Virus record (IMG/VR): IMGVR_UViG_3300028416_000444
Coordinates: 1-41,371 of that record
Direction: 5' to 3' (one strand)
Length of the DNA: 41,371 bases
Source of the DNA: a virus
The notes under the pieces were generated by a model. The model searched no databases. It was given only the letters and a program-made list of their open reading frames with translations, and was not told the DNA's origin. The position numbers were made by a program, and so were the translations under genes. Every line of letters begins with the position of its first letter. Positions within the stretch are counted from its first letter, which is position 1. This document shows positions 9,368 through 41,320 of the stretch, piece after piece.

Positions 9368-9748
9368 ATGGCATATTCAGATAAAGTTTTAGATCATTAT
9401 GAGAATCCAAGAAATGTTGGATCTTTAGATAAAGACAGTAAAGATGTAGGAACTGGCATGGTTGGCGCACCTGCTTGTGGTGACGTTATGAAACTACAGA
9501 TACAGGTAGAAGAAGGTGTTATCAAAGATGCCAAGTTCAAAACATATGGATGCGGTTCGGCTATAGCAAGTTCAAGTCTAGTAACAGAAATGTTAAAAGG
9601 TAAAACTATTGACCAAGCAGGTGATATTAAAAACTCAGCAATAGCAGAAGAACTAGCACTACCACCAGTTAAGATACATTGCTCTGTACTAGCAGAGGAC
9701 GCTATCAAATCAGCAATAATTGATTACAAAGAGAAGAATTCTAAATGA
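9368..9748 (+). CDS. iscU: Fe-S cluster assembly scaffold IscU
   Basis: The 126-aa protein is a complete IscU: GAPACGD with C37 and D39, TYGCGSA with C62, and the HscA-recognition motif LPPVK (98-102) followed by H104 and C105. IscU receives sulfur from the cysteine desulfurase IscS and iron to build [2Fe-2S] clusters. All ligands of the E. coli protein are present, so it should be active. It overlaps erpA by 4 nt (ATGA). No IscS, HscA/B or ferredoxin gene is in the window, so the host would have to supply sulfur. The gene has its own sigma70-like promoter and so may act early. Confidence 0.96.
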
Positions 9749-10074
9749 TAACAGTAACAGAGTCAGCAGTAAAAAAATTAAAAGAAATACTAGCAGAAGA
9801 AAACAACCCTGATCTTAAAGTTAGAATGTTTGTTAGTGGAGGTGGGTGCAGTGGTATGCAATATGGATTCACACTAGAAGATCAACCTGCAAATGAAGAT
9901 GACTTTGATTTAGAAGTTGCACCAGGTGTACACATGTTAGTAGACGCAATGAGCGGACAGTATGTACAAGGTGCTGAAGTTGATTGGAAAGAGTCAGTAC
10001 AAGGTGCACAGTTTGCTATTAGCAATCCTAACGCACAAACAAGTTGTGGATGTGGATCCAGTTTCTCAGTATGA
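9745..10074 (+). CDS. erpA: A-type Fe-S carrier, ErpA-like
   Basis: The protein has the three conserved cysteines of A-type carriers: C35 in [11 protein letters not shown] and C101/C103 in SCGCGSSF. The [10 protein letters not shown] sequence and length (109 aa) are closer to ErpA than to IscA. Such proteins pass [2Fe-2S] or [4Fe-4S] clusters from the scaffold to target enzymes. It lies between iscU and a second A-type gene, with 4-nt overlaps at both ends, which implies coupled translation. Likely targets inside this phage are the radical SAM enzymes; that link is inference. Confidence 0.9.
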
Positions 10075-10391
10075 TAACTTTAACAGATAAAGCATACGAA
10101 CGAGCGTTACATTCAATTCAATCAAGAGAAAATACTATAGGACTTCGTGTTGGAGTAAGAACAGCAGGATGTTCTGGACTTGCTTATGTATTAGAGTTTG
10201 TTGACCAAATTGGTGAACATGACGAAGTGTTTGAGATTAAAGATGTTAAAATAATAATAGACAAGAAAAGTCTTGTATATCTTAATGGATTAGAAATGGA
10301 TTGGGTTAAACAAGGACTCAACGAAGGCTTTGAATTTAATAACCCAAATGCCAATGGTGAATGTGGCTGTGGGGAAAGTTTTACTGTATGA
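10071..10391 (+). CDS. iscA: A-type Fe-S carrier, IscA-like
   Basis: I place the start at the ATG at 10071, overlapping the erpA stop. The 106-aa protein has C34 in [10 protein letters not shown] and C98/C100 in GECGCGESF, the three ligands of the family. GCSGLAY is the IscA/SufA-type version, so it is a paralog of the preceding ErpA-like gene and not a copy. It completes an iscU-erpA-iscA order in a single operon. It overlaps the next gene by 4 nt. Confidence 0.92.
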
Positions 10392-16782: not shown

Positions 16783-17907
16783 ATGAGCGTGTTAAATAAA
16801 AATAACAAGAGTCATCTAAAAGCTAATGCGTTTTTAGATAAAAGTGGTGGGCACGGTATCCAACGTTATGATACTGTTAAGTATAGACAATTTGAAAAAC
16901 TAACTGATAGACAATTAAGTTTCTTTTGGAGACCTGAGGAAGTTGACGTAATGCGTGACTCCAAAGACTTTAAAGACTTAACACCATATGAACAACATAT
17001 CTTTACAAGCAATTTAAAGAGACAGATTGTGCTTGACTCAGTACAAGGACGTTCACCTAACTTAGCTTTATTGCCTTTAGCAACTATACCAGAGATTGAA
17101 ACATGGATTGAAACTTGGGCGTTCAATGAAACTATTCATTCACGTTCATACACACATATCATTAGAAACGTTTATGCAGATCCGTCAAAAGTATTTGATA
17201 GCTTAATGGACGTAAACGAAATTGGATCATGTGGTACAGATATTTCCAAGTACTATGATGACTTAATTGAATATCATAGAATGTATGAATATTTAGGTGC
17301 AGGCGAGCATATAGTCAATGGCAAAAAAGTCATAGTTGACGAGTATGAACTTAAACGTCGTTTATGGTTATGTATTAATTCAGTAAACGTATTAGAAGGT
17401 ATTCGTTTTTATGTTTCTTTTGCTTGCTCTTGGGCATTTGCTGAACTTAAGAAAATGGAAGGCAATGCTAAGATTATTAAACTGATTGCTAGAGACGAAA
17501 ACATTCATTTAGCAAGCTCACAACACTTATTAAAAATGCTACCACAAGACGACAAAGACTTTGTTAAGATTAAAAAAGAGTGCGAACCAGAGGTAGTAGA
17601 AATGTTTAAGTCAGCAGTTGAGCAAGAAGAAGCCTGGGCAAAATACTTGTTCCAAGACGGTTCAATGATTGGACTTAACGAAGAACTACTATGTCAATAC
17701 ATTCAATGGATTGCTAACAAACGTATGTCAACACTAGGTTTAGAGTCACCATATCAAGGTGGTTCAAATCCTTTACCTTGGACACAGAAGTGGATATCAG
17801 GTAGCGAAGTACAGGTAGCACCTCAAGAAACAGAAATCAGTAGTTACACTATTGGTGCAGTTAAACAAGACGTAACAGAAGATACTTTGAAAGGTTTTAG
17901 TTTATAA
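16783..17907 (+). CDS. nrdB: Ribonucleoside-diphosphate reductase beta subunit, class Ia
   Basis: The 374-aa diiron protein supplies the tyrosyl radical to NrdA. Ligands are visible at D85 (VLDSVQGR), E116 and H119 (NETIHSRSY) and in the later LEGIRF and DENIHLAS segments. The radical tyrosine is Y123, in the same E-x-x-H-x-x-x-Y spacing as E. coli Y122. The C terminus (EDTLKGFSL) should be the peptide that docks to NrdA. It overlaps the first desaturase gene by one base (TAATG). Confidence 0.97.
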   Translation: MSVLNKNNKSHLKANAFLDKSGGHGIQRYDTVKYRQFEKLTDRQLSFFWRPEEVDVMRDSKDFKDLTPYEQHIFTSNLKRQIVLDSVQGRSPNLALLPLATIPEIETWIETWAFNETIHSRSYTHIIRNVYADPSKVFDSLMDVNEIGSCGTDISKYYDDLIEYHRMYEYLGAGEHIVNGKKVIVDEYELKRRLWLCINSVNVLEGIRFYVSFACSWAFAELKKMEGNAKIIKLIARDENIHLASSQHLLKMLPQDDKDFVKIKKECEPEVVEMFKSAVEQEEAWAKYLFQDGSMIGLNEELLCQYIQWIANKRMSTLGLESPYQGGSNPLPWTQKWISGSEVQVAPQETEISSYTIGAVKQDVTEDTLKGFSL

Positions 17908-18740
17908 TGCTTAAATGGTTTTATAGAACATTTCCGTTAGACAAGAGAGTAAAAATGCTACAGGCATTTGCTTATATTGGTCTAATAATAGGACTGGTAT
18001 TATACTTTGATTGGGCTTGGCTTGTAGCAGGTCTAGCATACAGTTGGATACTATTTTTAGTTGGTGCTAGCTGTGGACTACACAAATATTCAAGTCATAG
18101 ATCATTTGAACCTAAGAATAGATTCTATAAAATTTTAATGTTATCGTGCAGTACTGTATTAAGTTTAGGTAGTAACGTGTCATGGGCATGTACACACAGA
18201 AAGCATCATAAGTATTCAGACCATGAGGGCGATCCACATTCACCAAATATCAACGGTGGTGGCTTTTGGCGTTCAATACGACTATGGTTCTACTACTTTC
18301 CAACATATCAAATTAATCCAAGAACAGTAAAAGATCTTAGCATTGACAAAGATCATAAGTGGTTCCACAATAACTACTTTAAATTAAATCTTGGAGTATT
18401 TTTAGTATTGTTTTTAATAAGCCCTAAGGTAGCAACATATTTTTATTTCCTACCAATCGTATATGGGTTCCAAGCTATCAGTTATATCACTGTGTTAGCT
18501 CACAACAAGTATCTTTACAAGTGGATAGGTTACACAAACTTTCCTAGTACAGATAGAACATTTAACTCAAAGATAGCATCAGTGTTTGTTCCTGGCGATG
18601 GTAATCATAATAATCATCATACACAGCCTGCCGCGGCCAAGAATAAGTTTACTGCAAAGGATTGGGATCTTGCTTGGTGGTTTATTAAGTTAGCGGGTAA
18701 AGATGTTAAAGATGACTATCAGCAGAAGATACACGCTTAG
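17907..18740 (+). CDS. Membrane fatty acid desaturase (acyl-CoA/acyl-lipid type)
   Basis: The three histidine boxes of membrane diiron desaturases are present: HKYSSH (59-64), HRKHH (97-101) and HNNHH (234-238). Four membrane segments are predicted in the usual pairs. The family inserts a cis double bond into fatty acyl chains at the membrane, which increases fluidity. The gene is coupled to nrdB (TAATG), so it rides in the nrd operon. Its last 35 nt overlap the 3' end of a second desaturase on the opposite strand, a clear paralog with the same box order. Host origin is likely. Confidence 0.93.
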   Translation: MLKWFYRTFPLDKRVKMLQAFAYIGLIIGLVLYFDWAWLVAGLAYSWILFLVGASCGLHKYSSHRSFEPKNRFYKILMLSCSTVLSLGSNVSWACTHRKHHKYSDHEGDPHSPNINGGGFWRSIRLWFYYFPTYQINPRTVKDLSIDKDHKWFHNNYFKLNLGVFLVLFLISPKVATYFYFLPIVYGFQAISYITVLAHNKYLYKWIGYTNFPSTDRTFNSKIASVFVPGDGNHNNHHTQPAAAKNKFTAKDWDLAWWFIKLAGKDVKDDYQQKIHA

Positions 18741-19536
18741 ATAGTAAGTCAGCAATTTCACCACTTAGATCAAACTTGTTATTTCTCTTACCATAGTTTC
18801 TTTCACCTGGGTAAGCATGGTGAGTTTCGTGATATCCTTCTCCAGCAAATAGCCAAGTAAACAATACACTATCCCAACTAAGATCATTTTCATTATGTGG
18901 CTTAGTACCTTTAAACCAACGTTGTAGTGTTTCACTGTGTGCTATAACTGTTACCCAACTCATACCTAGTAGACAATATACTACAGGTAAAGCAAATAAG
19001 TAGACAACCAAGACAGGATCAACCATAAACAGTATTATTGGATAAACAGACCATATTTTCCAATAGTTATTATGATAGAATTTAATTTCTCGATCTTTAA
19101 CTAAATCAATAACAACACGTGGATTAATCTTATCAGTCTCCATCCATAAGAACCATAGTTTAATGTTATGTATCCAGCTATTAGTTAGTGCGAATGGGTC
19201 TTGCTCGGTGTCTGAATGCTTATGATGTGTTCTATGACCTGCCGCAAATTCTATAGGTGTTCCTAGGGTAGTCATTGTACCCAGTAATAATAGTAAATGC
19301 TTTACAAGACGATTACGTGGGTCTAAGGCACGGTGTGATATCCACTTATGCAGGCTTACGCTAACGCCTAAAGTAAACAATATATAACCTAATATAAGCC
19401 CTGCGATTAATAGTGCAAAGTTAAAATTTATAATCAAAGTGGCAATAACGAGCAAATAAATGGTTGCTTGTGCAATGCGAACTCTGTTATAATTAGCAAT
19501 CGATAATTTATTTTTTAGGTCATTGAATAATGTCAT
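18706..19536 (-). CDS. Second membrane fatty acid desaturase, opposite strand
   Basis: This is a paralog of the plus-strand desaturase, with HKWISH (63-68), HRTHH (101-105) and HETHH (236-240) and shared segments such as FHNNY/YHNNY and KINPRVV/QINPRTV. I start it at the ATG at 19536; longer starts would run into the glutaredoxin gene on the other strand. A perfect TATAAATA lies just 5 nt before this ATG and no Shine-Dalgarno is seen, so a leaderless late transcript is predicted. It is one of only two minus-strand genes in the window. The pair may have different regiospecificity, since the sequences have diverged strongly. Confidence 0.92.
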   Translation of the reverse strand: MTLFNDLKNKLSIANYNRVRIAQATIYLLVIATLIINFNFALLIAGLILGYILFTLGVSVSLHKWISHRALDPRNRLVKHLLLLLGTMTTLGTPIEFAAGHRTHHKHSDTEQDPFALTNSWIHNIKLWFLWMETDKINPRVVIDLVKDREIKFYHNNYWKIWSVYPIILFMVDPVLVVYLFALPVVYCLLGMSWVTVIAHSETLQRWFKGTKPHNENDLSWDSVLFTWLFAGEGYHETHHAYPGERNYGKRNNKFDLSGEIADLLSKRVSSADSHL

Positions 19537-19541
19537 AACTA

Positions 19542-19549
19542 TATTTATA
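19542..19549 (-). promoter_or_regulatory. Perfect T4-late box TATAAATA on minus strand
   Basis: Read on the minus strand the sequence is TATAAATATAGTT, near-identical to the T4 late consensus TATAAATACTATT. The desaturase ATG (19536) follows after 5 nt, so the transcript would start at about the start codon. Confidence 0.6.
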
Positions 19550-19577
19550 GATTTAAAAACTACAAGGGAAAAATTAT

Positions 19578-19820
19578 ATGCTAAAAATATACTCCAAAAC
19601 AAGCTGTCCGCATTGTGATAGTGCTAAACAATTTCTTGAATCAAAAGACATTGAATTTGAAGTTATTAACATAGAAAAGGATAGCGAAGCAAAAGAATTC
19701 TTAGTGGGAGAAGGACATCGATCAGTACCACAAATATATAAGGATGATGAGCTATTTGTTGAAGGTGGATATAGTGCATTAATTAAATTAACAGAGGATG
19801 AAATAAAGGCAAAATTATGA
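19578..19820 (+). CDS. nrdC: Glutaredoxin
   Basis: The 80-aa protein has the dithiol active site CPHC (10-13), the cis-proline segment SVPQIY and the GGYSAL motif of glutaredoxins. It should keep the NrdA C-terminal cysteines reduced with electrons from glutathione. AAGGGA precedes the ATG. In related phages a glutaredoxin/thioredoxin gene usually lies near nrdAB; here two desaturase genes stand between. It overlaps the next gene by 4 nt. Confidence 0.93.
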   Translation: MLKIYSKTSCPHCDSAKQFLESKDIEFEVINIEKDSEAKEFLVGEGHRSVPQIYKDDELFVEGGYSALIKLTEDEIKAKL

Positions 19821-34385: not shown

Positions 34386-35593
34386 TGTCAGACTCAGCTA
34401 TTACAGAATGTAGTTTTTGTAGTAAACAAAAAGAGCAAGTCAAAAAGTTAATTGTTGGCGAATCTAGTGCTATCTGTTCAGAGTGTGTTGATTTTTGTCA
34501 ACAGCTTTTAACAGAAGATCAGGAAACTTACGAGCGTCCAGAAATTGATCTTGATCCTATACATATTAAAGAATTCTTAGACAAACATGTTATTGGACAG
34601 GAAGACGCTAAACGTATGATTAGTGTTGCTGTAGCAAATCATTATAAACGTATTGGCAATAAATCAACACTAGACCTTGCTAAAGCAAATGTATTACTGC
34701 TTGGACCTACAGGATGCGGTAAAACAATGTTAGCTAAAACTGTAGCAAAATATTTAGATGTTCCTTTTGCCATTGGTGATGCAACTAGTTTAACAGAGTC
34801 TGGTTATGTAGGAGATGACGTTGAAACACTGATATCAAGACTACTTAATAATGCAAAAGGTGATGTAAGAAAAGCCGAACGTGGTATTATCTTTATTGAT
34901 GAAGTTGATAAAATTTCACGCAAGTCTGAATCAACGTCAATTTCAAGAGATGTTTCGGGAGAAGGTGTACAACAAGCTCTATTGAAACTGATTGAAGGTA
35001 CTACGTGTCGTGTTAACTTAACAGGCAATCGTAAACATCCTAGTGGTGAAACAGTTGATGTAAACACAGCAAACATTTTATTTGTAGCTGGTGGTGCGTT
35101 TGTTGGATTAGATAAAATAGTACAACGTAGAAAATCAAACAACTCAATTGGATTTGGTAGTAATATCAAAAAAGAAATATCGCTACAAGCATTGAAAGAA
35201 GTAAACCCAGATGATTTAAACAAGTTTGGTCTTATACCAGAACTTGTTGGTAGATTCACAAACACTGTTGCATTAGAAGAATTAGAGCTAAAAGATTTAC
35301 AATATGTTCTAAGTAAAATAGAAAATAACTTAATAGACCAATATACATATTTGTTCAAATTAGATAAAGTTGACTTAGAATTAACACAAGATGCTATTGA
35401 AACTATAGCAAAGCGTACACAGACGCTTAAAACAGGTGCTAGAGGCCTGCACACAGAATTAGAAAGGGCACTTATGCCACATATGTATAATGTCCAAAAG
35501 TATAGACAACAGGGTATAAAACGTGTTATACTAGACAGTAATCAGGTAAATAAACCTACAATATTAACGAAGGAGACAAATGGCAAAATATAA
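34385..35593 (+). CDS. clpX: ClpX, AAA+ unfoldase of the ClpXP protease
   Basis: The 402-aa protein is complete. Residues 1-40 form the zinc-binding domain (C9, C12, C31, C34). Walker A is GPTGCGKT (107-114), Walker B is IIFIDEVDKI (168-177), and the pore loop is GYVG (140-143). The RKH loop is NRKHPS (215-220) and the arginine-finger region LVGRF (287-291). An IGF loop for docking on ClpP is present at 255-257 (SIGFGS). All functional elements of cellular ClpX are retained, so it could unfold substrates and team with host ClpP; no clpP is in the window. It is coupled to the preceding gene and overlaps rpsU by 14 nt. Confidence 0.96.
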   Translation: MSDSAITECSFCSKQKEQVKKLIVGESSAICSECVDFCQQLLTEDQETYERPEIDLDPIHIKEFLDKHVIGQEDAKRMISVAVANHYKRIGNKSTLDLAKANVLLLGPTGCGKTMLAKTVAKYLDVPFAIGDATSLTESGYVGDDVETLISRLLNNAKGDVRKAERGIIFIDEVDKISRKSESTSISRDVSGEGVQQALLKLIEGTTCRVNLTGNRKHPSGETVDVNTANILFVAGGAFVGLDKIVQRRKSNNSIGFGSNIKKEISLQALKEVNPDDLNKFGLIPELVGRFTNTVALEELELKDLQYVLSKIENNLIDQYTYLFKLDKVDLELTQDAIETIAKRTQTLKTGARGLHTELERALMPHMYNVQKYRQQGIKRVILDSNQVNKPTILTKETNGKI

Positions 35594-35828
35594 TCCATTA
35601 CTTAAAGGTGGTGGTGGTTCTTTAGTTGTTTTGAGTGATCGAGACAATGTAGAGCGTGCCCTTCGTAAGTTCAAAAAGAAAATGAATAATAATGGTGTTC
35701 TGCAAGATGTAAGAGATCGCCAGCATTATATCAAACCAACGGAAAAGCGTAAGCTGAAAAAAGCGGCCGCTAAAAAACGTTGGCAACGTGAACTTGCGTC
35801 AGGACAACTACCAAAAAAAATGTACTAA
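35580..35828 (+). CDS. rpsU: Ribosomal protein bS21
   Basis: The 82-aa protein has the bS21 core RDNVERALRKFKKKMNNNG followed by a basic C-terminal helix (KRKLKKAAAKKRWQREL). bS21 sits on the small ribosomal subunit near the anti-Shine-Dalgarno and affects initiation. Phage-encoded bS21 has been reported in SAR11 phages, from memory. AAGGAG precedes its ATG inside the clpX coding end, so both can be translated from one mRNA. It could replace host bS21 and bias ribosomes to phage mRNAs. Confidence 0.93.
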   Translation: MAKYNPLLKGGGGSLVVLSDRDNVERALRKFKKKMNNNGVLQDVRDRQHYIKPTEKRKLKKAAAKKRWQRELASGQLPKKMY

Positions 35829-35842
35829 AACCTTGCTTCGTT

Positions 35843-35850
35843 GATAAATA
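35843..35850 (+). promoter_or_regulatory. Late-type promoter box upstream of hsp20
   Basis: GATAAATA, with the predicted transcript start near 35856. That would place it inside the outer part of the first hairpin described below, leaving GTAAGA/TCTTAC and the inner CCA/TGG pairs still able to form. Confidence 0.5.
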
Positions 35851-35852
35851 AT

Positions 35853-35935
35853 ATTGTAAGATGCCAGACTTGGGTCTTACAATTTTAGGGCATGTTGCCC
35901 AAACTTAAACTTGCTTTTTAAAAGGAGATTAAAAA
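35853..35935 (+). promoter_or_regulatory. Candidate ROSE-type RNA thermometer in the hsp20 leader
   Basis: Three hairpins can be drawn. Hairpin 1: ATTGTAAGA (35853-35861) with TCTTACAAT (35875-35883), with an inner CCA/TGG pair. Hairpin 2: GGGCA (35888-35892) with TGCCC (35896-35900). Hairpin 3: CUUGCUUU (35910-35917) with AAAGGAG (35921-35927). Hairpin 3 contains the Shine-Dalgarno AAGGAG and pairs C35914-U35917 with A35921-G35924 and C35910-U35912 with G35925-G35927, leaving G35913 bulged. UUGCU opposite AGGA with a bulged G is the signature of ROSE elements, which melt on heating and control small heat-shock genes, chiefly in alpha-proteobacteria and relatives. Folding was done by eye. Confidence 0.6.
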
Positions 35936-36373
35936 ATGACAAGATTATCATCACTAGATTTACAACCCTTCTATCGAAATTCTATAGGCATTGATCAGCT
36001 ATTTGATACAATGATTAATAGGATCGATAACTCAAACTCAACTAACTATCCACCGTATAATATCATTAAACATGATGACGATAATTATACTATCGAAGTT
36101 GCTGTGGCTGGTTTTGCAGACGGTGAAATTGATGTTCAAGTAAATGATGGACAATTAATTATTACCGGAGACAAAGCCGAAGTTGAAACAGAGCAGGATA
36201 ACTATCTACATCAAGGTATTGGAACACGTAAGTTTGTACGTACATTCCAACTTGCTGAATATGTTGAAGTTAAAACTGCAACTGTTGAGGCCGGTATCTT
36301 AATTGTTTCTTTAGAACGAGAAGTTCCTGAAGCAATGAAACCGAAAAGTATTGCAATTACATATAAATCGTAA
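35936..36373 (+). CDS. hsp20: Small heat-shock protein Hsp20 (IbpA-like)
   Basis: The 145-aa protein has the alpha-crystallin domain (about residues 38-135), with YTIEVAVAGFADGEIDV, a DGQLIITGDK strand and the C-terminal AGILIVSLEREVPE segment; SIAI near the end is the IxI-type anchor. It is of the IbpA type. Small heat-shock proteins hold unfolded proteins for refolding; in marine T4-like phages they are common and probably aid virion assembly. The ATG is preceded by AAGGAG, which is embedded in a hairpin (see the ROSE-type entry). Confidence 0.95.
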   Translation: MTRLSSLDLQPFYRNSIGIDQLFDTMINRIDNSNSTNYPPYNIIKHDDDNYTIEVAVAGFADGEIDVQVNDGQLIITGDKAEVETEQDNYLHQGIGTRKFVRTFQLAEYVEVKTATVEAGILIVSLEREVPEAMKPKSIAITYKS

Positions 36374-36431: not shown

Positions 36432-36457
36432 ACTTAATTAATATTTAAAGGATGCAA

Positions 36458-36769
36458 ATGGGGACACAAGTGGAAGTCAAAGAAAAAGTTAAAACAGAGA
36501 TAAGTTTACAAGAACCAGGTATGTTTAAAGTTATCTATGTCAATGACGAAAAAACAACACTAGAGTTTGTTGTTGAATCTTTAGTAGATATATTTGACTA
36601 CGATAGTAAATCAGCAGAACATATTACAATGGATATTCATTCTAATGGAAGTGCTACTGTTGCAGTGTTACCATATGAAATAGCTGAACAAAAAGGTATT
36701 GAAGTTACTGTAGCGGCAAGAACAGCAGGTTATCCTTTAATGGTTAGAGTTGAACCTGAATCCGTTTAG
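36458..36769 (+). CDS. clpS: ClpS, N-end-rule adaptor of Clp proteases
   Basis: The 103-aa protein fits ClpS: FKVIYVNDEKTTLEFVVESL (read in parts, residues 23-42), an HSNG turn with H61, and EIAEQKGIEVTVAARTAGYPLMV at the end. The N-degron pocket residues N29, D30 and H61 are present; E31 replaces the usual Asp and L35 is at the gatekeeper position. A charged tail of about 20 residues precedes the core. ClpS delivers proteins with N-terminal bulky residues to ClpA (not ClpX), and no clpA is in the window. I use ATG 36458, 5 nt after AAAGGA, instead of 36452, which overlaps it. Its 3' end overlaps a minus-strand gene by 26 nt. Confidence 0.93.
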   Translation: MGTQVEVKEKVKTEISLQEPGMFKVIYVNDEKTTLEFVVESLVDIFDYDSKSAEHITMDIHSNGSATVAVLPYEIAEQKGIEVTVAARTAGYPLMVRVEPESV

Positions 36770-38014: not shown

Positions 38015-38470
38015 ATGATCAAGACAATTTTAGGAGCGTTGTCTGTTGTATTAGTATCAACACAGCTAAACGCACAACCACTACGAGATTTTACGTTTAA
38101 AAGTCCGGCCTTTAACGGCAACGGATATTCCGCACACATCTTAACAATAGAAAACCAAGAACATTCACGTAAGAAAGCTATCAAAGATAAGATAGAAGCC
38201 AAGCTAAACGAAGAAAAAGCTAAAGCAGAAAATACTAACGTTAAGAAGTTTATGAGTAACTTAGAATCACGTATCTACGCACAAATATCACAAGACATAG
38301 CAACAGCAATGTTCAATGACGATGGTAGTTCACCAACATCGGGTACACTGAACTTTGAAGGCAACATTATTACTTGGGACAAGTCATCGGGTAACATAGA
38401 GCTAGGAGTTACTGACATGGCTGGAACAACAACCACATTAACAATACCATTAGGTGACTTTACATTTTAA
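38015..38470 (+). CDS. csgF: CsgF, curli assembly factor
   Basis: A signal peptide (residues 1-20, ending QLNA) is followed by QPLRDFTFKSPAFNGNG, the CsgF N-terminal segment that in E. coli plugs into the CsgG pore. A charged helix follows (KKAIKDKIEAKLNEEKAKAE), then a C-terminal beta domain with NIELGVTDMAGTTTTLTI, like CsgF. Length (151 aa) fits the family (138 in E. coli). It is secreted to the outer face, where it couples the CsgG channel to curlin nucleation. The stop overlaps csgG by one base (TAATG). Confidence 0.93.
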   Translation: MIKTILGALSVVLVSTQLNAQPLRDFTFKSPAFNGNGYSAHILTIENQEHSRKKAIKDKIEAKLNEEKAKAENTNVKKFMSNLESRIYAQISQDIATAMFNDDGSSPTSGTLNFEGNIITWDKSSGNIELGVTDMAGTTTTLTIPLGDFTF

Positions 38471-39276
38471 TGCGAACATTATTAATATTATTAACTGTAC
38501 TACTACTCGGTGGATGTGCCGCAGGGCAAGGTCTTAAAGGTCAGTACGATCAACCTGTAACTGTAGAAGCACCGACAGCTAAAGAGTTTGATACTATACC
38601 GCCACCGGCATTAGGCAAGGTAGTGGTTGCTGTTTATAGCTTTACAGATAAGACAGGACAAAGACGTCCAAGTGATACACAGTCAAGTTTCTCAACTGCT
38701 GTGACACAGGGTGCTGATGCGTTTCTAATCAAAGCATTAAAAGATGTAGGTAACAGTGCTTGGTTTGATGTAGTAGAACGTGGAGGACTTGCTAGTCTTA
38801 CACAAGAAAGACAGATTATTAGACAGATGCGTGAAGCCTATGATGGGCCCAACGCTAAGAAACTTATGCCAATGAAGTTTGCTGGCATGTTGATTGAAGG
38901 CGGTATAACAGGTTACGACACTTCAACAAGAAGTGGTGGTATGGGTATGCGTGTATTAGGCATAGGACCACAAACACAATTTAGTGAAGACATTATTACA
39001 GTAAGTTTAAGAGCAGTAAGTGTTAACACTGGAGCAGTATTGGCGGCTGTGAATGTACAGAAAACAATATATTCTACAGCAGACAGTATAGCAGTATTAA
39101 AATTCTTTGACAATGATACACAGGTCTTTGAATTTGAGTCGGGTATTACATTAAACGAACCGGCAACATTGGCAGTGAAAACTACAGTCGAAGCGGCAGT
39201 AGTTGAGCTAATAAAAGAAGGTGAACTCAAAGACGTTTGGGATTTTGCCTATCAGCCAGAATCTGGCAAGGAGTAG
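38470..39276 (+). CDS. csgG: CsgG, outer-membrane curli secretion channel
   Basis: The 268-aa protein has a lipoprotein signal with LGGC and C16 as the lipidated residue. Conserved CsgG segments follow: KVVVAVYSFTDKTGQ, SFSTAVTQGADAFLIKAL, WFDVVERGGLASLTQERQIIRQ, GGITGYDTSTRSGGMGMRVLGIG and SVNTGAVLAAVN. It should form the nonameric channel that exports curlin. The pore-constriction loop (near residues 66-74, RPSDTQSSF) differs from E. coli KPYPASNF: Y51 and N55 have Ser-like replacements, F56 is kept. It is followed by the curlin-like gene after 4 nt. Confidence 0.95.
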   Translation: MRTLLILLTVLLLGGCAAGQGLKGQYDQPVTVEAPTAKEFDTIPPPALGKVVVAVYSFTDKTGQRRPSDTQSSFSTAVTQGADAFLIKALKDVGNSAWFDVVERGGLASLTQERQIIRQMREAYDGPNAKKLMPMKFAGMLIEGGITGYDTSTRSGGMGMRVLGIGPQTQFSEDIITVSLRAVSVNTGAVLAAVNVQKTIYSTADSIAVLKFFDNDTQVFEFESGITLNEPATLAVKTTVEAAVVELIKEGELKDVWDFAYQPESGKE

Positions 39277-39280
39277 TAAA

Positions 39281-40054
39281 ATGAAAAATTTAGTAAAAAT
39301 GTTTGGGGCATTATTACTTGTAACATCAACGGCGTGGGCCGCTGATAACAGTATCTACATTGATCAAGCTGGTAGCTCGAGTACCATTGATTTAAAACAA
39401 GATGGTAGTGCAAACAAAATATTCGGAGTTGGCGATTCTGAAGGAACCGCGGCAACATTCACAGGTGGCAGTCAAACTGTTGACATACAGCAAATTGGTG
39501 CCAGTAACTTATTAGGCATAGACGCTAACACAACAGTAGACAGTGGTGTAGGTGTTGACTTAACTTATATTATCACAGGATCAAACTCTGTAGCAAGTAT
39601 TGACATCAATGGCGATGGCTTAGGCGTTGCCGCAAACAATACAATTGATATAAGACAAACTGGTAGTTATAATGACTTAATGCTTGACCTATTAGGAACA
39701 GGAAACAGTTTAACAGCAACAGCAACTGGTGGTGATTATAATGACTTTAACTTTACTATTGACGCTGACACAACAACTGTAAACACAGCTATTAGTGGCG
39801 GTGGTGGTAACACTACAACATTAGTATTAGGTACTGACAAAGCAACAGTTGATATTACAGCAGTTGGAGCATCAAACACAATCAGTCTTACACAAAGTGG
39901 CGCAGGTGATGCTACAAATGGTATGAATTTTGATTTAGATATTAACGGTTCATCAAACTCAGTAACTACAACACAGAGTGGTTCACAGTTTAATGACGTT
40001 GACGTAAACATTACTGGATCATCTAATGCCTGGACAATTAATCAATCAGACTAA
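39281..40054 (+). CDS. csgA: Curlin-repeat protein (CsgA/CsgB-like)
   Basis: I place the start at ATG 39281, 7 nt after AAGGAG. A signal peptide (1-20, ending AWA) precedes roughly 235 residues made of imperfect curlin repeats with the pattern N/S-x5-Q-x-G-x2-N: for example IYIDQAGSSS, IDLKQDGSANK, VDIQQIGASN, IDIRQTGSYN, ISLTQSGAGD and TTTQSGSQFN. It is rich in Asn, Gly, Thr and Asp and has no cysteine. The repeats form amyloid beta-helix rungs in curli; it could be the main subunit or the nucleator. It is exported through CsgG. Confidence 0.9.
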   Translation: MKNLVKMFGALLLVTSTAWAADNSIYIDQAGSSSTIDLKQDGSANKIFGVGDSEGTAATFTGGSQTVDIQQIGASNLLGIDANTTVDSGVGVDLTYIITGSNSVASIDINGDGLGVAANNTIDIRQTGSYNDLMLDLLGTGNSLTATATGGDYNDFNFTIDADTTTVNTAISGGGGNTTTLVLGTDKATVDITAVGASNTISLTQSGAGDATNGMNFDLDINGSSNSVTTTQSGSQFNDVDVNITGSSNAWTINQSD

Positions 40055-40055
40055 T

Positions 40056-40211
40056 ATGCAAACTCAAAACCAACATCTAAAAGTTATGATGCAAGACTTA
40101 GACAATCTTAGGCAAGAAGTGGCACAGTCACCAAACGGTGTAGAGTCTATTTTGAAAGAAATAGATAAACGTGGTTGTGAGTTATTATATCAATACCTAG
40201 CAACAAAATGA
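40056..40211 (+). CDS. Small helical protein within the curli cluster (51 aa)
   Basis: ATG 40056 is 1 nt after the curlin gene's stop. The product (MQTQNQHLKVMMQDLDNL onward) is helical and polar with one cysteine and no signal peptide, so it stays in the cytoplasm. It overlaps the FecR-type gene by 4 nt. No family is recognised; its place between an exported amyloid and an exported FecR protein is odd. Confidence 0.6.
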   Translation: MQTQNQHLKVMMQDLDNLRQEVAQSPNGVESILKEIDKRGCELLYQYLATK

Positions 40212-41320
40212 ACAAGTTACTCATAGTTTTACTCATAGCTATCCCCCAAATGGCTATGAGTGCTATTGGTACTATCTCAGATCAATTCCAAGACCCAGCA
40301 AGTATTACCCGAAAAGACAAAACTCTTGAAGGTGTTAAAGGTGTAGGTGTAGAAATGTTAGACCTTCTACGCACAGGAGCCGGCACACTTGAAATCACAT
40401 TTGATGATGACACACAGGTACAAATGACAGAGTCAGCTAAGTTAACCATCGACGACTTTGTATATGACCCAAAAGATGCAGACGCAGGCAAGCTAGCAAT
40501 TAAGATAGGCAGAGGCACAGCTCGTTATGCTTCAGGACAGATAGCAAAGAATCGTCCTCAAGCAGTTAAAATTAAAACACCAAGTGCTACTGTAGCAGTT
40601 AGAGGTACAGACTTTACAGCCACAGTAGATGAGATAGGTGCTACCACAGTTATTCTATTACCTAGTTGTCCTCGAGGTTGGATAGACATAGAACGTGATT
40701 GTAAGACTGGTGCTATTGAAGTAATAAGTTTAGGCGGGTCGGTATTTATGGATAAACCGTTTGAAGCAACTCGTGTACCTAATTTAGAAGCTAAACCTAC
40801 ACCACCAGTTATAGTTGACTTAACAGAAGAAATGATTAGACAAATTATTATTGTAGGTACACCTAGAGAAGTTAAAGAACAAGAAGCACGCTTAACACGT
40901 AAGTCATTATTAGATGACAATGCCTTAGACCAAGAACAATTAGAAAACGAACTAGATAGGCAAGCTGAAGAAATAGAACAGTACAGTGCTAGTACAAGAC
41001 TAAGTCGTAACTTATTAGATAGAGATTTTTTAGCTAATATCTTAGACATACTTAATTTACAATTAATAAACGCACAAAGTCGTGTGTTAAGCGGTACACA
41101 AAAGAATTCAATACTACCAGACTATGTTCCGGACCAAGGTGTAGAAGCTTATGTAGATAATATATCAGTAGAACTATGTATAGACACTATTGGTAGTGAC
41201 ATCGCTTGTATTAAAACACCAACTACACAAGAAAGTACTATACGTCAGATACAGGGCACTGTGGACATAACCAACAGAGTTAATAGTGAAGGTACGACCA
41301 CTATTACTACGAGACAATAA
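40208..41320 (+). CDS. Exported FecR-domain protein
   Basis: A signal peptide (about 1-19) is followed by a FecR-type domain with LRTGAGTLEITFDDDTQVQMTESAKLTI (read in parts, about 54-82) and the hallmark TPSATVAVRGTDFTATVDE near 128-146. The C-terminal half is helical and acidic (EEMIRQIIIVGTP, then Glu/Gln-rich segments). The FecR domain in non-regulatory proteins is a periplasmic or surface beta domain. Linked in one operon with csgF-csgG-curlin, it may anchor or protect the fibre. Two cysteine pairs (near 158-170 and 330-338) could form disulfides. It overlaps the next ORF by one base. Confidence 0.88.
   Translation: MNKLLIVLLIAIPQMAMSAIGTISDQFQDPASITRKDKTLEGVKGVGVEMLDLLRTGAGTLEITFDDDTQVQMTESAKLTIDDFVYDPKDADAGKLAIKIGRGTARYASGQIAKNRPQAVKIKTPSATVAVRGTDFTATVDEIGATTVILLPSCPRGWIDIERDCKTGAIEVISLGGSVFMDKPFEATRVPNLEAKPTPPVIVDLTEEMIRQIIIVGTPREVKEQEARLTRKSLLDDNALDQEQLENELDRQAEEIEQYSASTRLSRNLLDRDFLANILDILNLQLINAQSRVLSGTQKNSILPDYVPDQGVEAYVDNISVELCIDTIGSDIACIKTPTTQESTIRQIQGTVDITNRVNSEGTTTITTRQ

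Follow-up and report, generated by a model that had tools for sequence, protein, structure and literature searches.

We consider it probable that the leader of the small heat-shock gene hsp20 in the IMG/VR virus record IMGVR_UViG_3300028416_000444, the whole of which was analyzed (41,371 bases, here called the window), is a ROSE-type RNA thermometer that controls the translation of the phage Hsp20 protein. The leader is assigned to the ROSE type because homologous leaders share its motif and its covariation, and because models of the phage leaders and of the bacterial elements recognize each other's members. From the behavior of this family, the leader would be expected to sense heat. Heat-shock genes are known in phages, for instance dnaK and hsp20, the latter being a core gene of the T4-like cyanophages, and we know of no account of how phages time their chaperones. 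The kind of element described here is itself known; the surprising part is the spread of a ROSE-like element through phages and its use on dnaK.

In the window the genes around the leader follow the order clpX, rpsU, hsp20, clpS, with curli genes farther along (Table 1). The gap between rpsU and hsp20 is 107 bases long and contains three hairpins, and the copy in front of hsp20 is the only copy of the element in the window.

Table 1. Features of the window that are discussed in the text
Feature	Position	Strand	Description
IscU/NifU-like and IscA-like iron-sulphur assembly genes	9368..9748 and 10044..10391		
Fatty acid desaturase gene	17907..18740	+	Pfam; convergent with the next
Fatty acid desaturase gene	18706..19602	-	Pfam; convergent with the previous
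rpsU (ribosomal protein S21)	35580..35828	+	upstream of hsp20; Pfam 2e-19; without ROSE-type element
T4-type late-promoter-like box	35843..35850	+	GATAAATA; 1 mismatch to TATAAATA; 11 nt 5' of the UGCC of hairpin 1
Hairpin 1	35853..35883	+	9-bp stem closing UGCC/GGG, bulged G (35863); AUUGUAAGA-UGCC-loop-GGG-UCUUACAAU
Hairpin 2	35888..35900	+	GGGCA-UGU-UGCCC
Hairpin 3 (sensor hairpin)	35905..35932	+	CUUGCU (35910-35915) paired with AGGAG (35923-35927): C35910-G35927, U35911-A35926, U35912.G35925, C35914-G35924, U35915-A35923; G35913 bulged
Shine-Dalgarno AGGAG of hsp20	35923..35927	+	8 nt 5' of AUG (direct reading)
hsp20 (small heat-shock protein, 145 aa)	35936..36373	+	Pfam HSP20 6e-19, PHROG 432 4e-40
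clpS	36452..36769	+	downstream of hsp20; Pfam 8e-23; without ROSE-type element
Curli genes csgF, csgG and curlin-repeat protein, then FecR-domain protein	38015..41320		

The original prediction gave the sequence and the coordinates of the leader correctly, and the three hairpins that it drew are those of the minimum-energy fold of 35853-35935. This fold, which extends up to the AUG, has an energy of -21.2 kcal/mol, as compared with -14.4 +/- 2.8 kcal/mol for shuffled sequences (z -2.43; 4 of 200 shuffles were as low). The claim that the last hairpin masks the Shine-Dalgarno (SD) sequence with a CUUGCU element and leaves one bulged G agrees both with direct reading and with the fold. The bulged-purine motif of hairpin 3 (UYGCU/AGG) recurs in hairpin 1 as YGCC/GGG. 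Hairpin 2 is an optional module, variable and missing from most phages, that is present also in L001 and in several phage dnaK leaders. The leader shows the structural features of the ROSE type: a last hairpin that includes the SD, in which AGGA faces U(U/C)GCU and a single G is bulged, a total of two to four hairpins with one to three of them upstream of the last (three here, two in most phages), and a small heat-shock gene whose 5' UTR contains the element; its helices are backed by compensatory changes that are strong for hairpin 1 and modest for the SD hairpin. The arrangement UYGCU-AGGAG-AUG occurs once in the 41 kb when both strands are considered; given that 0.18 occurrences are expected by chance, a single window is weak evidence and the proof has to come from homologous leaders.

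Accordingly, the main evidence comes from 231 hsp20 genes, obtained by Hsp20 protein searches of IMG/VR and from 12 named GenBank phages. Among the distinct hsp20 leaders of phages, 166 have an AGGA SD, and in 144 of these UYGCU was found 1-14 bases 5' of it, as compared with 15 of the 311 other genes of the same DNA that have such an SD; the Fisher test gives p ~7e-79, a value to be read as an effect size since the sequences are related and not independent. Two of the 15 motif-bearing control genes are dnaK genes with the full element. Most exceptions among the hsp20 leaders carry the variants UUACU, UGUCU or GACGCU, or belong to an hsp20 that stands second behind another gene; the hsp20 of L252 is without the element. 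Carriers include the Pelagibacter phages HTVC008M and HTVC115P, the methylophage Melnitz-3, phage C48C1, the jumbo phages Phosso and Atu_ph07, and the cyanophages Syn1, S-T4, P-TIM40 and S-CRM01. The element is not peculiar to one phage and belongs to a widespread phage family; the presence of cyanophages and a methylophage among its carriers shows that it is not tied to phages of alpha-proteobacteria.

MAFFT alignments of the full leaders misplaced the stems, and for this reason a narrow seed was used and the leaders were realigned with models. In a separate approach 111 distinct leaders were anchored by sequence only (YGCC..GGG upstream of YUYGCU..AGGAG), leaving the pairing unused. Pairs 1 to 5 of hairpin 1 outside this anchor are formed in 107, 108, 110, 103 and 74 of the 111 leaders, and in 78, 78, 69, 46 and 42 when the partners are shuffled; past position 5 the excess fades. 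YGCC/GGG is kept in the 111 leaders while the stem around it has been rewritten. In a model-fitted alignment 99% of the hairpin 1 pairs are kept, and 6 of 7 have changes on both sides. In alignment A3, which like A4 was fitted by a model to the structure, 95.4% of the cells are paired and 140 are doubly changed, versus 32.5 when shuffled; the covariation is 0.330, versus 0.131 when shuffled and at most 0.089 when the partner is slid. Alignment A4 behaves likewise, and the two together span 95-97% of cells paired and 140-194 doubly changed cells versus 32-54. In the SD hairpin, changes between U.G and C-G are frequent, and a C precedes the anti-SD motif only where the SD is AGGAGG (10 of 10); covariation on this side is limited because the SD is fixed. 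Related phages retain, nearly without exception, the pairing of UYGCU to the SD, which the original prediction had set as a test, and show massive compensatory change in hairpin 1.

The Rfam models, which the original prediction had named as a check, gave a divided answer. At the curated cut-offs no family matched in the window, and RF00435 (ROSE) gave no match to the leader in either the curated or the permissive scan. In the permissive scan of 301 bases, ROSE_3 (RF02523) was the best of 4,227 families and lay exactly on the leader; its score of 24.9 bits (E 0.0031) is below the curated cut-off of 43 bits and constitutes a lead rather than membership, so that the leader is filed as ROSE-like. 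Across 15 phage loci the leaders score 24.7-38.7 bits against RF02523, all Rfam ROSE scores on phage leaders being under the curated cut-off, and 8 of the 10 Rfam matches at these loci are to ROSE_3, all of them on leaders of chaperone genes.

Models were also built from the phage leaders. R1, a phage-only model obtained from 17 leaders outside the clade of the window, has a single match in the 41 kb, the hsp20 leader (E 1.4e-5), although its alignment forms a first stem, UUGGG/GCCCA, unlike the proposed hairpin 1, and part of the score rests on this different pairing. R1 was also run over phage DNA (404 kb and 535 kb), where almost all of its matches fell on hsp20 or dnaK leaders. The broader phage model R2, whose training set partly includes the window, matched 30 of 31 whole phage records, again almost only at hsp20 and dnaK leaders; weaker matches in the phage genomes L428 and L429 have no gene start behind them and were taken as noise. 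Among 299 evenly sampled Pseudomonadota genomes, 14 had an R2 match, and the top two (E 5e-8 and 6e-8) are both certified Rfam ROSE_3 elements of 67-71 bits; recognition between the phage-leader models and those of Pseudomonas ROSE runs in both directions. In 23 genomes of bacteria with a related Hsp20, R2 gave one marginal match, which indicates that the phage form is a distinct subfamily. Among bacterial relatives of the window Hsp20, 67 of 80 leaders have the motif under a loose test, and the Rfam ROSE families certify only 3 of 20 bacterial Hsp20 loci. From the cross-recognition and the few certified bacterial loci, we conclude that the phage elements are ROSE-like and that the Rfam cut-offs are narrow.

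Two sets of records merit a comment on their provenance. The unverified phage record OQ572409.1 ('Pseudomonas phage Y7', L037) has an Hsp20 locus with a certified ROSE_3 of 69 bits and is probably host DNA. L431 and L434, from genomes that belong to the same order as the Pelagibacterales bin G022, have ROSE-like hsp20 leaders and Hsp20s that resemble that of phage HTVC008M, and their contigs may be phage DNA binned with bacteria.

ROSE-like elements have been described as bacterial, in front of small heat-shock, virulence and ABC-transporter genes (PMC4166951, PMC11342760, PMC12857270). The closest known system is the short two-hairpin ROSE of Pseudomonas ibpA (RF02523; PMC3669281), in which a GAUGCC/GGGUC hairpin is followed by ACUUGCU...AGGAG with a bulged G in front of a small heat-shock gene. 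In contrast with it, the phage element is found in a phage genome and has other stem sequences, an A/U-rich sensor hairpin and, in the window copy, an extra middle hairpin; moreover, its phage relatives control dnaK and another gene, and a T4-type late promoter replaces sigma-32. Rhizobial ROSE (RF00435) also precedes a small heat-shock gene and consists of three to four hairpins, in the last of which UYGCU faces the SD and a G is bulged; it differs in the design of the upstream hairpins. The ROSE-like and ROSE-G elements (PMC11342760, PMC12857270) also pair UYGCU or CUGCU to the SD with a bulged G, but belong to bacterial transporter genes, and ROSE-G has opposing bulged Gs. The phage thermometers present in the literature searched are lambda cIII, which closes on heating, the fourU of SPbeta blyA, and one sigma-70 gene of a gut phage (PMC10586365, PMC11182007); these are also thermometer RNAs of phages, with other structures and other genes. 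The statement that a ROSE element had not been described in a phage agrees with our search of 5.4 million open-access papers, in which no paper describing one was found; the papers on cyanophage small heat-shock proteins and on Melnitz make no mention of a thermometer.

The computed stability of the hairpins is consistent with a temperature response. The energy of hairpin 3 goes from -6.0 kcal/mol (10 C) through -3.9 (20 C) and -0.5 (37 C) to +0.5 kcal/mol at 42 C, whereas at this last temperature hairpins 1 and 2 still have -9.5 and -5.5 kcal/mol. For the leader taken through the AUG, the computed accessibility of the SD is 0.06 at 20 C, 0.23 at 37 C and 0.37 at 45 C, while control genes stay flat at ~0.5. 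The predicted melting of hairpin 3, with hairpin 1 staying folded, is the pattern proven for the two-hairpin thermometer of Pseudomonas ibpA, in which hairpin I withstands the heating that melts hairpin II, and in which deletion of G39 locks the P. aeruginosa element off (PMC3669281). An objection arises when at least 9 nt of coding sequence, for example codons 2-5, are included in the calculation: the nearest-neighbour model, which charges the full cost for the ROSE bulge (a feature it handles poorly) and ignores folding during transcription, then favors over the ROSE fold, by 2.0-2.9 kcal/mol at 10-42 C, a rival hairpin (UUUUUAA/UUAAAAA plus CUUG/CAAG) that places the SD in its loop. In many dnaK leaders the predicted exposure of the SD goes up likewise once coding sequence is added. 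Hairpin 3 forms before codons 2-5 are transcribed, and the objection of the rival fold still stands.

A box resembling the T4 late promoter lies just upstream of hairpin 1, and a transcript from it would start at the foot of this hairpin. With one mismatch to TATAAATA allowed, such a box is located 8-11 nt before YGCC in 47 of 109 other hsp20 leaders and within 45 nt in 54 of 109 (13% when shuffled), and it precedes 59 of 64 phage dnaK genes (23% when shuffled). The following sequence of events can be proposed. Late in infection the phage-modified polymerase would start at the GATAAATA box, which would place the stable hairpin 1 at the very 5' end of the mRNA. Hairpin 3, the structure of which is supported by homology and covariation, would conceal the SD behind CUUGCU as long as the water is at its usual temperature, and few ribosomes would load. 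On warming, the weak hairpin 3, with its U.G pair and bulged G, would melt while hairpins 1 and 2 stay folded and, judging from the computed energies and from the validated bacterial ROSE elements, the mRNA already present could be translated into Hsp20 without delay. Related phages have this cassette before hsp20, before dnaK and before a small helical-protein gene, one copy to each.

In the relatives the element is present on more genes than hsp20. All 64 distinct dnaK leaders (L006, L007, L008 and L234-L313), from phages whose DnaK is 76-100% identical to that of L006, have the full element. The order clpX-dnaK-hsp20-clpS is frequent, and dnaK and hsp20 then bear one copy each; the gene that follows dnaK, which is hsp20 in 34 of 35 cases, is preceded by an element of its own. 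A third target encodes a small helical protein of 77-103 aa (L424, L425, L426, L427; L012, 2860-2905; L013), sometimes directly upstream of hsp20, which has a weak resemblance to phasins (Pfam Phasin_2 in one of five, E 0.0045, below the cut-off). The targets dnaK and the third gene exceed the usual definition of ROSE, which is confined to small heat-shock genes. At the level of sequence, hsp20, dnaK and the small helical-protein gene, each with its own copy, constitute a phage-encoded heat-shock regulon. A conserved thermometer at phage chaperone genes would link temperature or protein damage directly to phage production in lakes and oceans, and would extend to a third gene class (Hsp70) an RNA family so far associated with small heat-shock genes and transporter genes; the phage leaders would offer natural thermometers tuned to a wide span of water temperatures.

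A different reading is that translation is repressed by Hsp20 bound to its own leader, and in relatives also to the dnaK leader, until aggregated proteins in the infected cell titrate the protein away and free the mRNA; the leader would then be part of a sensor of protein damage with temperature as one input. We regard this as unlikely to be the main explanation. The IbpA protein of E. coli binds the thermometer leader of its own gene and represses it by means of R93, which cannot be replaced by any other residue (PMC10474464); small heat-shock protein and thermometer leader belong to one gene there, as is probable for the phage, whose protein retains the critical arginine. The equivalent of R93, which is R98 in the window Hsp20, is R in 177 of 180 phage Hsp20s, and that of Y34 is aromatic in 179 of 180; against this, the position of K98, also required in E. 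coli, is K or R in only 13 of 180, that of R97 is R or K in 128 of 180, and the R93 site may be retained for other reasons. The presence of the same bulged-purine motif in hairpins 1 and 3 is also in favor of a protein that recognizes it.

Further evidence on this point comes from the A-type phages, in which both bulges are A and not G (YACC plus UUACU or UCACU) in hsp20 leaders (L008, L073, L075, L085, L086) and dnaK leaders (L008, L240, L243, L251, L259, L284, L286, L298, L301, L302) alike. The types were called automatically, and several misread sites (L044, L087, L090, L236, L240, L243, L249, L251) were corrected by eye. Where hairpin 1 could be typed both before dnaK and before hsp20 in a phage, which was possible for 43 pairs, the two types always match (28 G/G, 15 A/A, 0 discordant), and copying between the two elements is unlikely because their stems differ. 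On the DnaK tree the bulge type requires 4 changes, of which well supported branches force at least 3; on the Hsp20 tree only 1-3 are required (3, possibly 1), and the A-type may have arisen there a single time. These observations suggest that Hsp20 itself may read the leaders. A broader model, which we hold to be doubtful, is that aquatic tailed phages have their own heat-shock regulon of ROSE-like leaders on hsp20, dnaK and the small helical-protein gene, in which Hsp20 recognizes both bulged-purine motifs of every leader, RNA and protein jointly sense protein damage in infection, and recognizer and RNA have switched together between G-type and A-type. The dnaK leaders of L235 and L242 are mixed, with an A-type hairpin 1 and a G-type SD hairpin. 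In the column of E. coli IbpA A54, phage Hsp20s have T in 15 of 16 A-type phages and A or S in the G-type, a difference confounded by descent.

It is quite improbable that the leader is a static damper, with a hairpin that lowers Hsp20 output or shields the mRNA end and does not respond to temperature. Many phages live at an almost constant temperature, and hairpins that hide the SD cut translation in any case. In addition, 5' hairpins stabilize mRNA (discussed in PMC3669281). Nevertheless, a damper would not explain why cyanophages, pelagiphages and jumbo phages all preserve the exact UYGCU along with a bulged purine, or account for the near-complete restriction of the element to chaperone genes. 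The idea that hairpin 1 terminates rpsU, everything else being due to chance, is rejected as having next to no likelihood: UUUU follows hairpin 1, but no intrinsic terminator (GC-rich stem plus U-tract) is called there, the related hairpins have no U-tract and retain YGCC/GGG and the SD hairpin, and the element also stands before dnaK and other genes, so that the dismissal of a weak rpsU terminator in the original prediction was justified.

Regarding the remaining gene content of the window, the phage carries IscU/NifU-like and IscA-like iron-sulphur assembly genes, and, after clpS, phage-borne curli genes that are followed by a gene for a FecR-domain protein. It also carries two convergent fatty acid desaturase genes; desaturases are classic enzymes of temperature adaptation.
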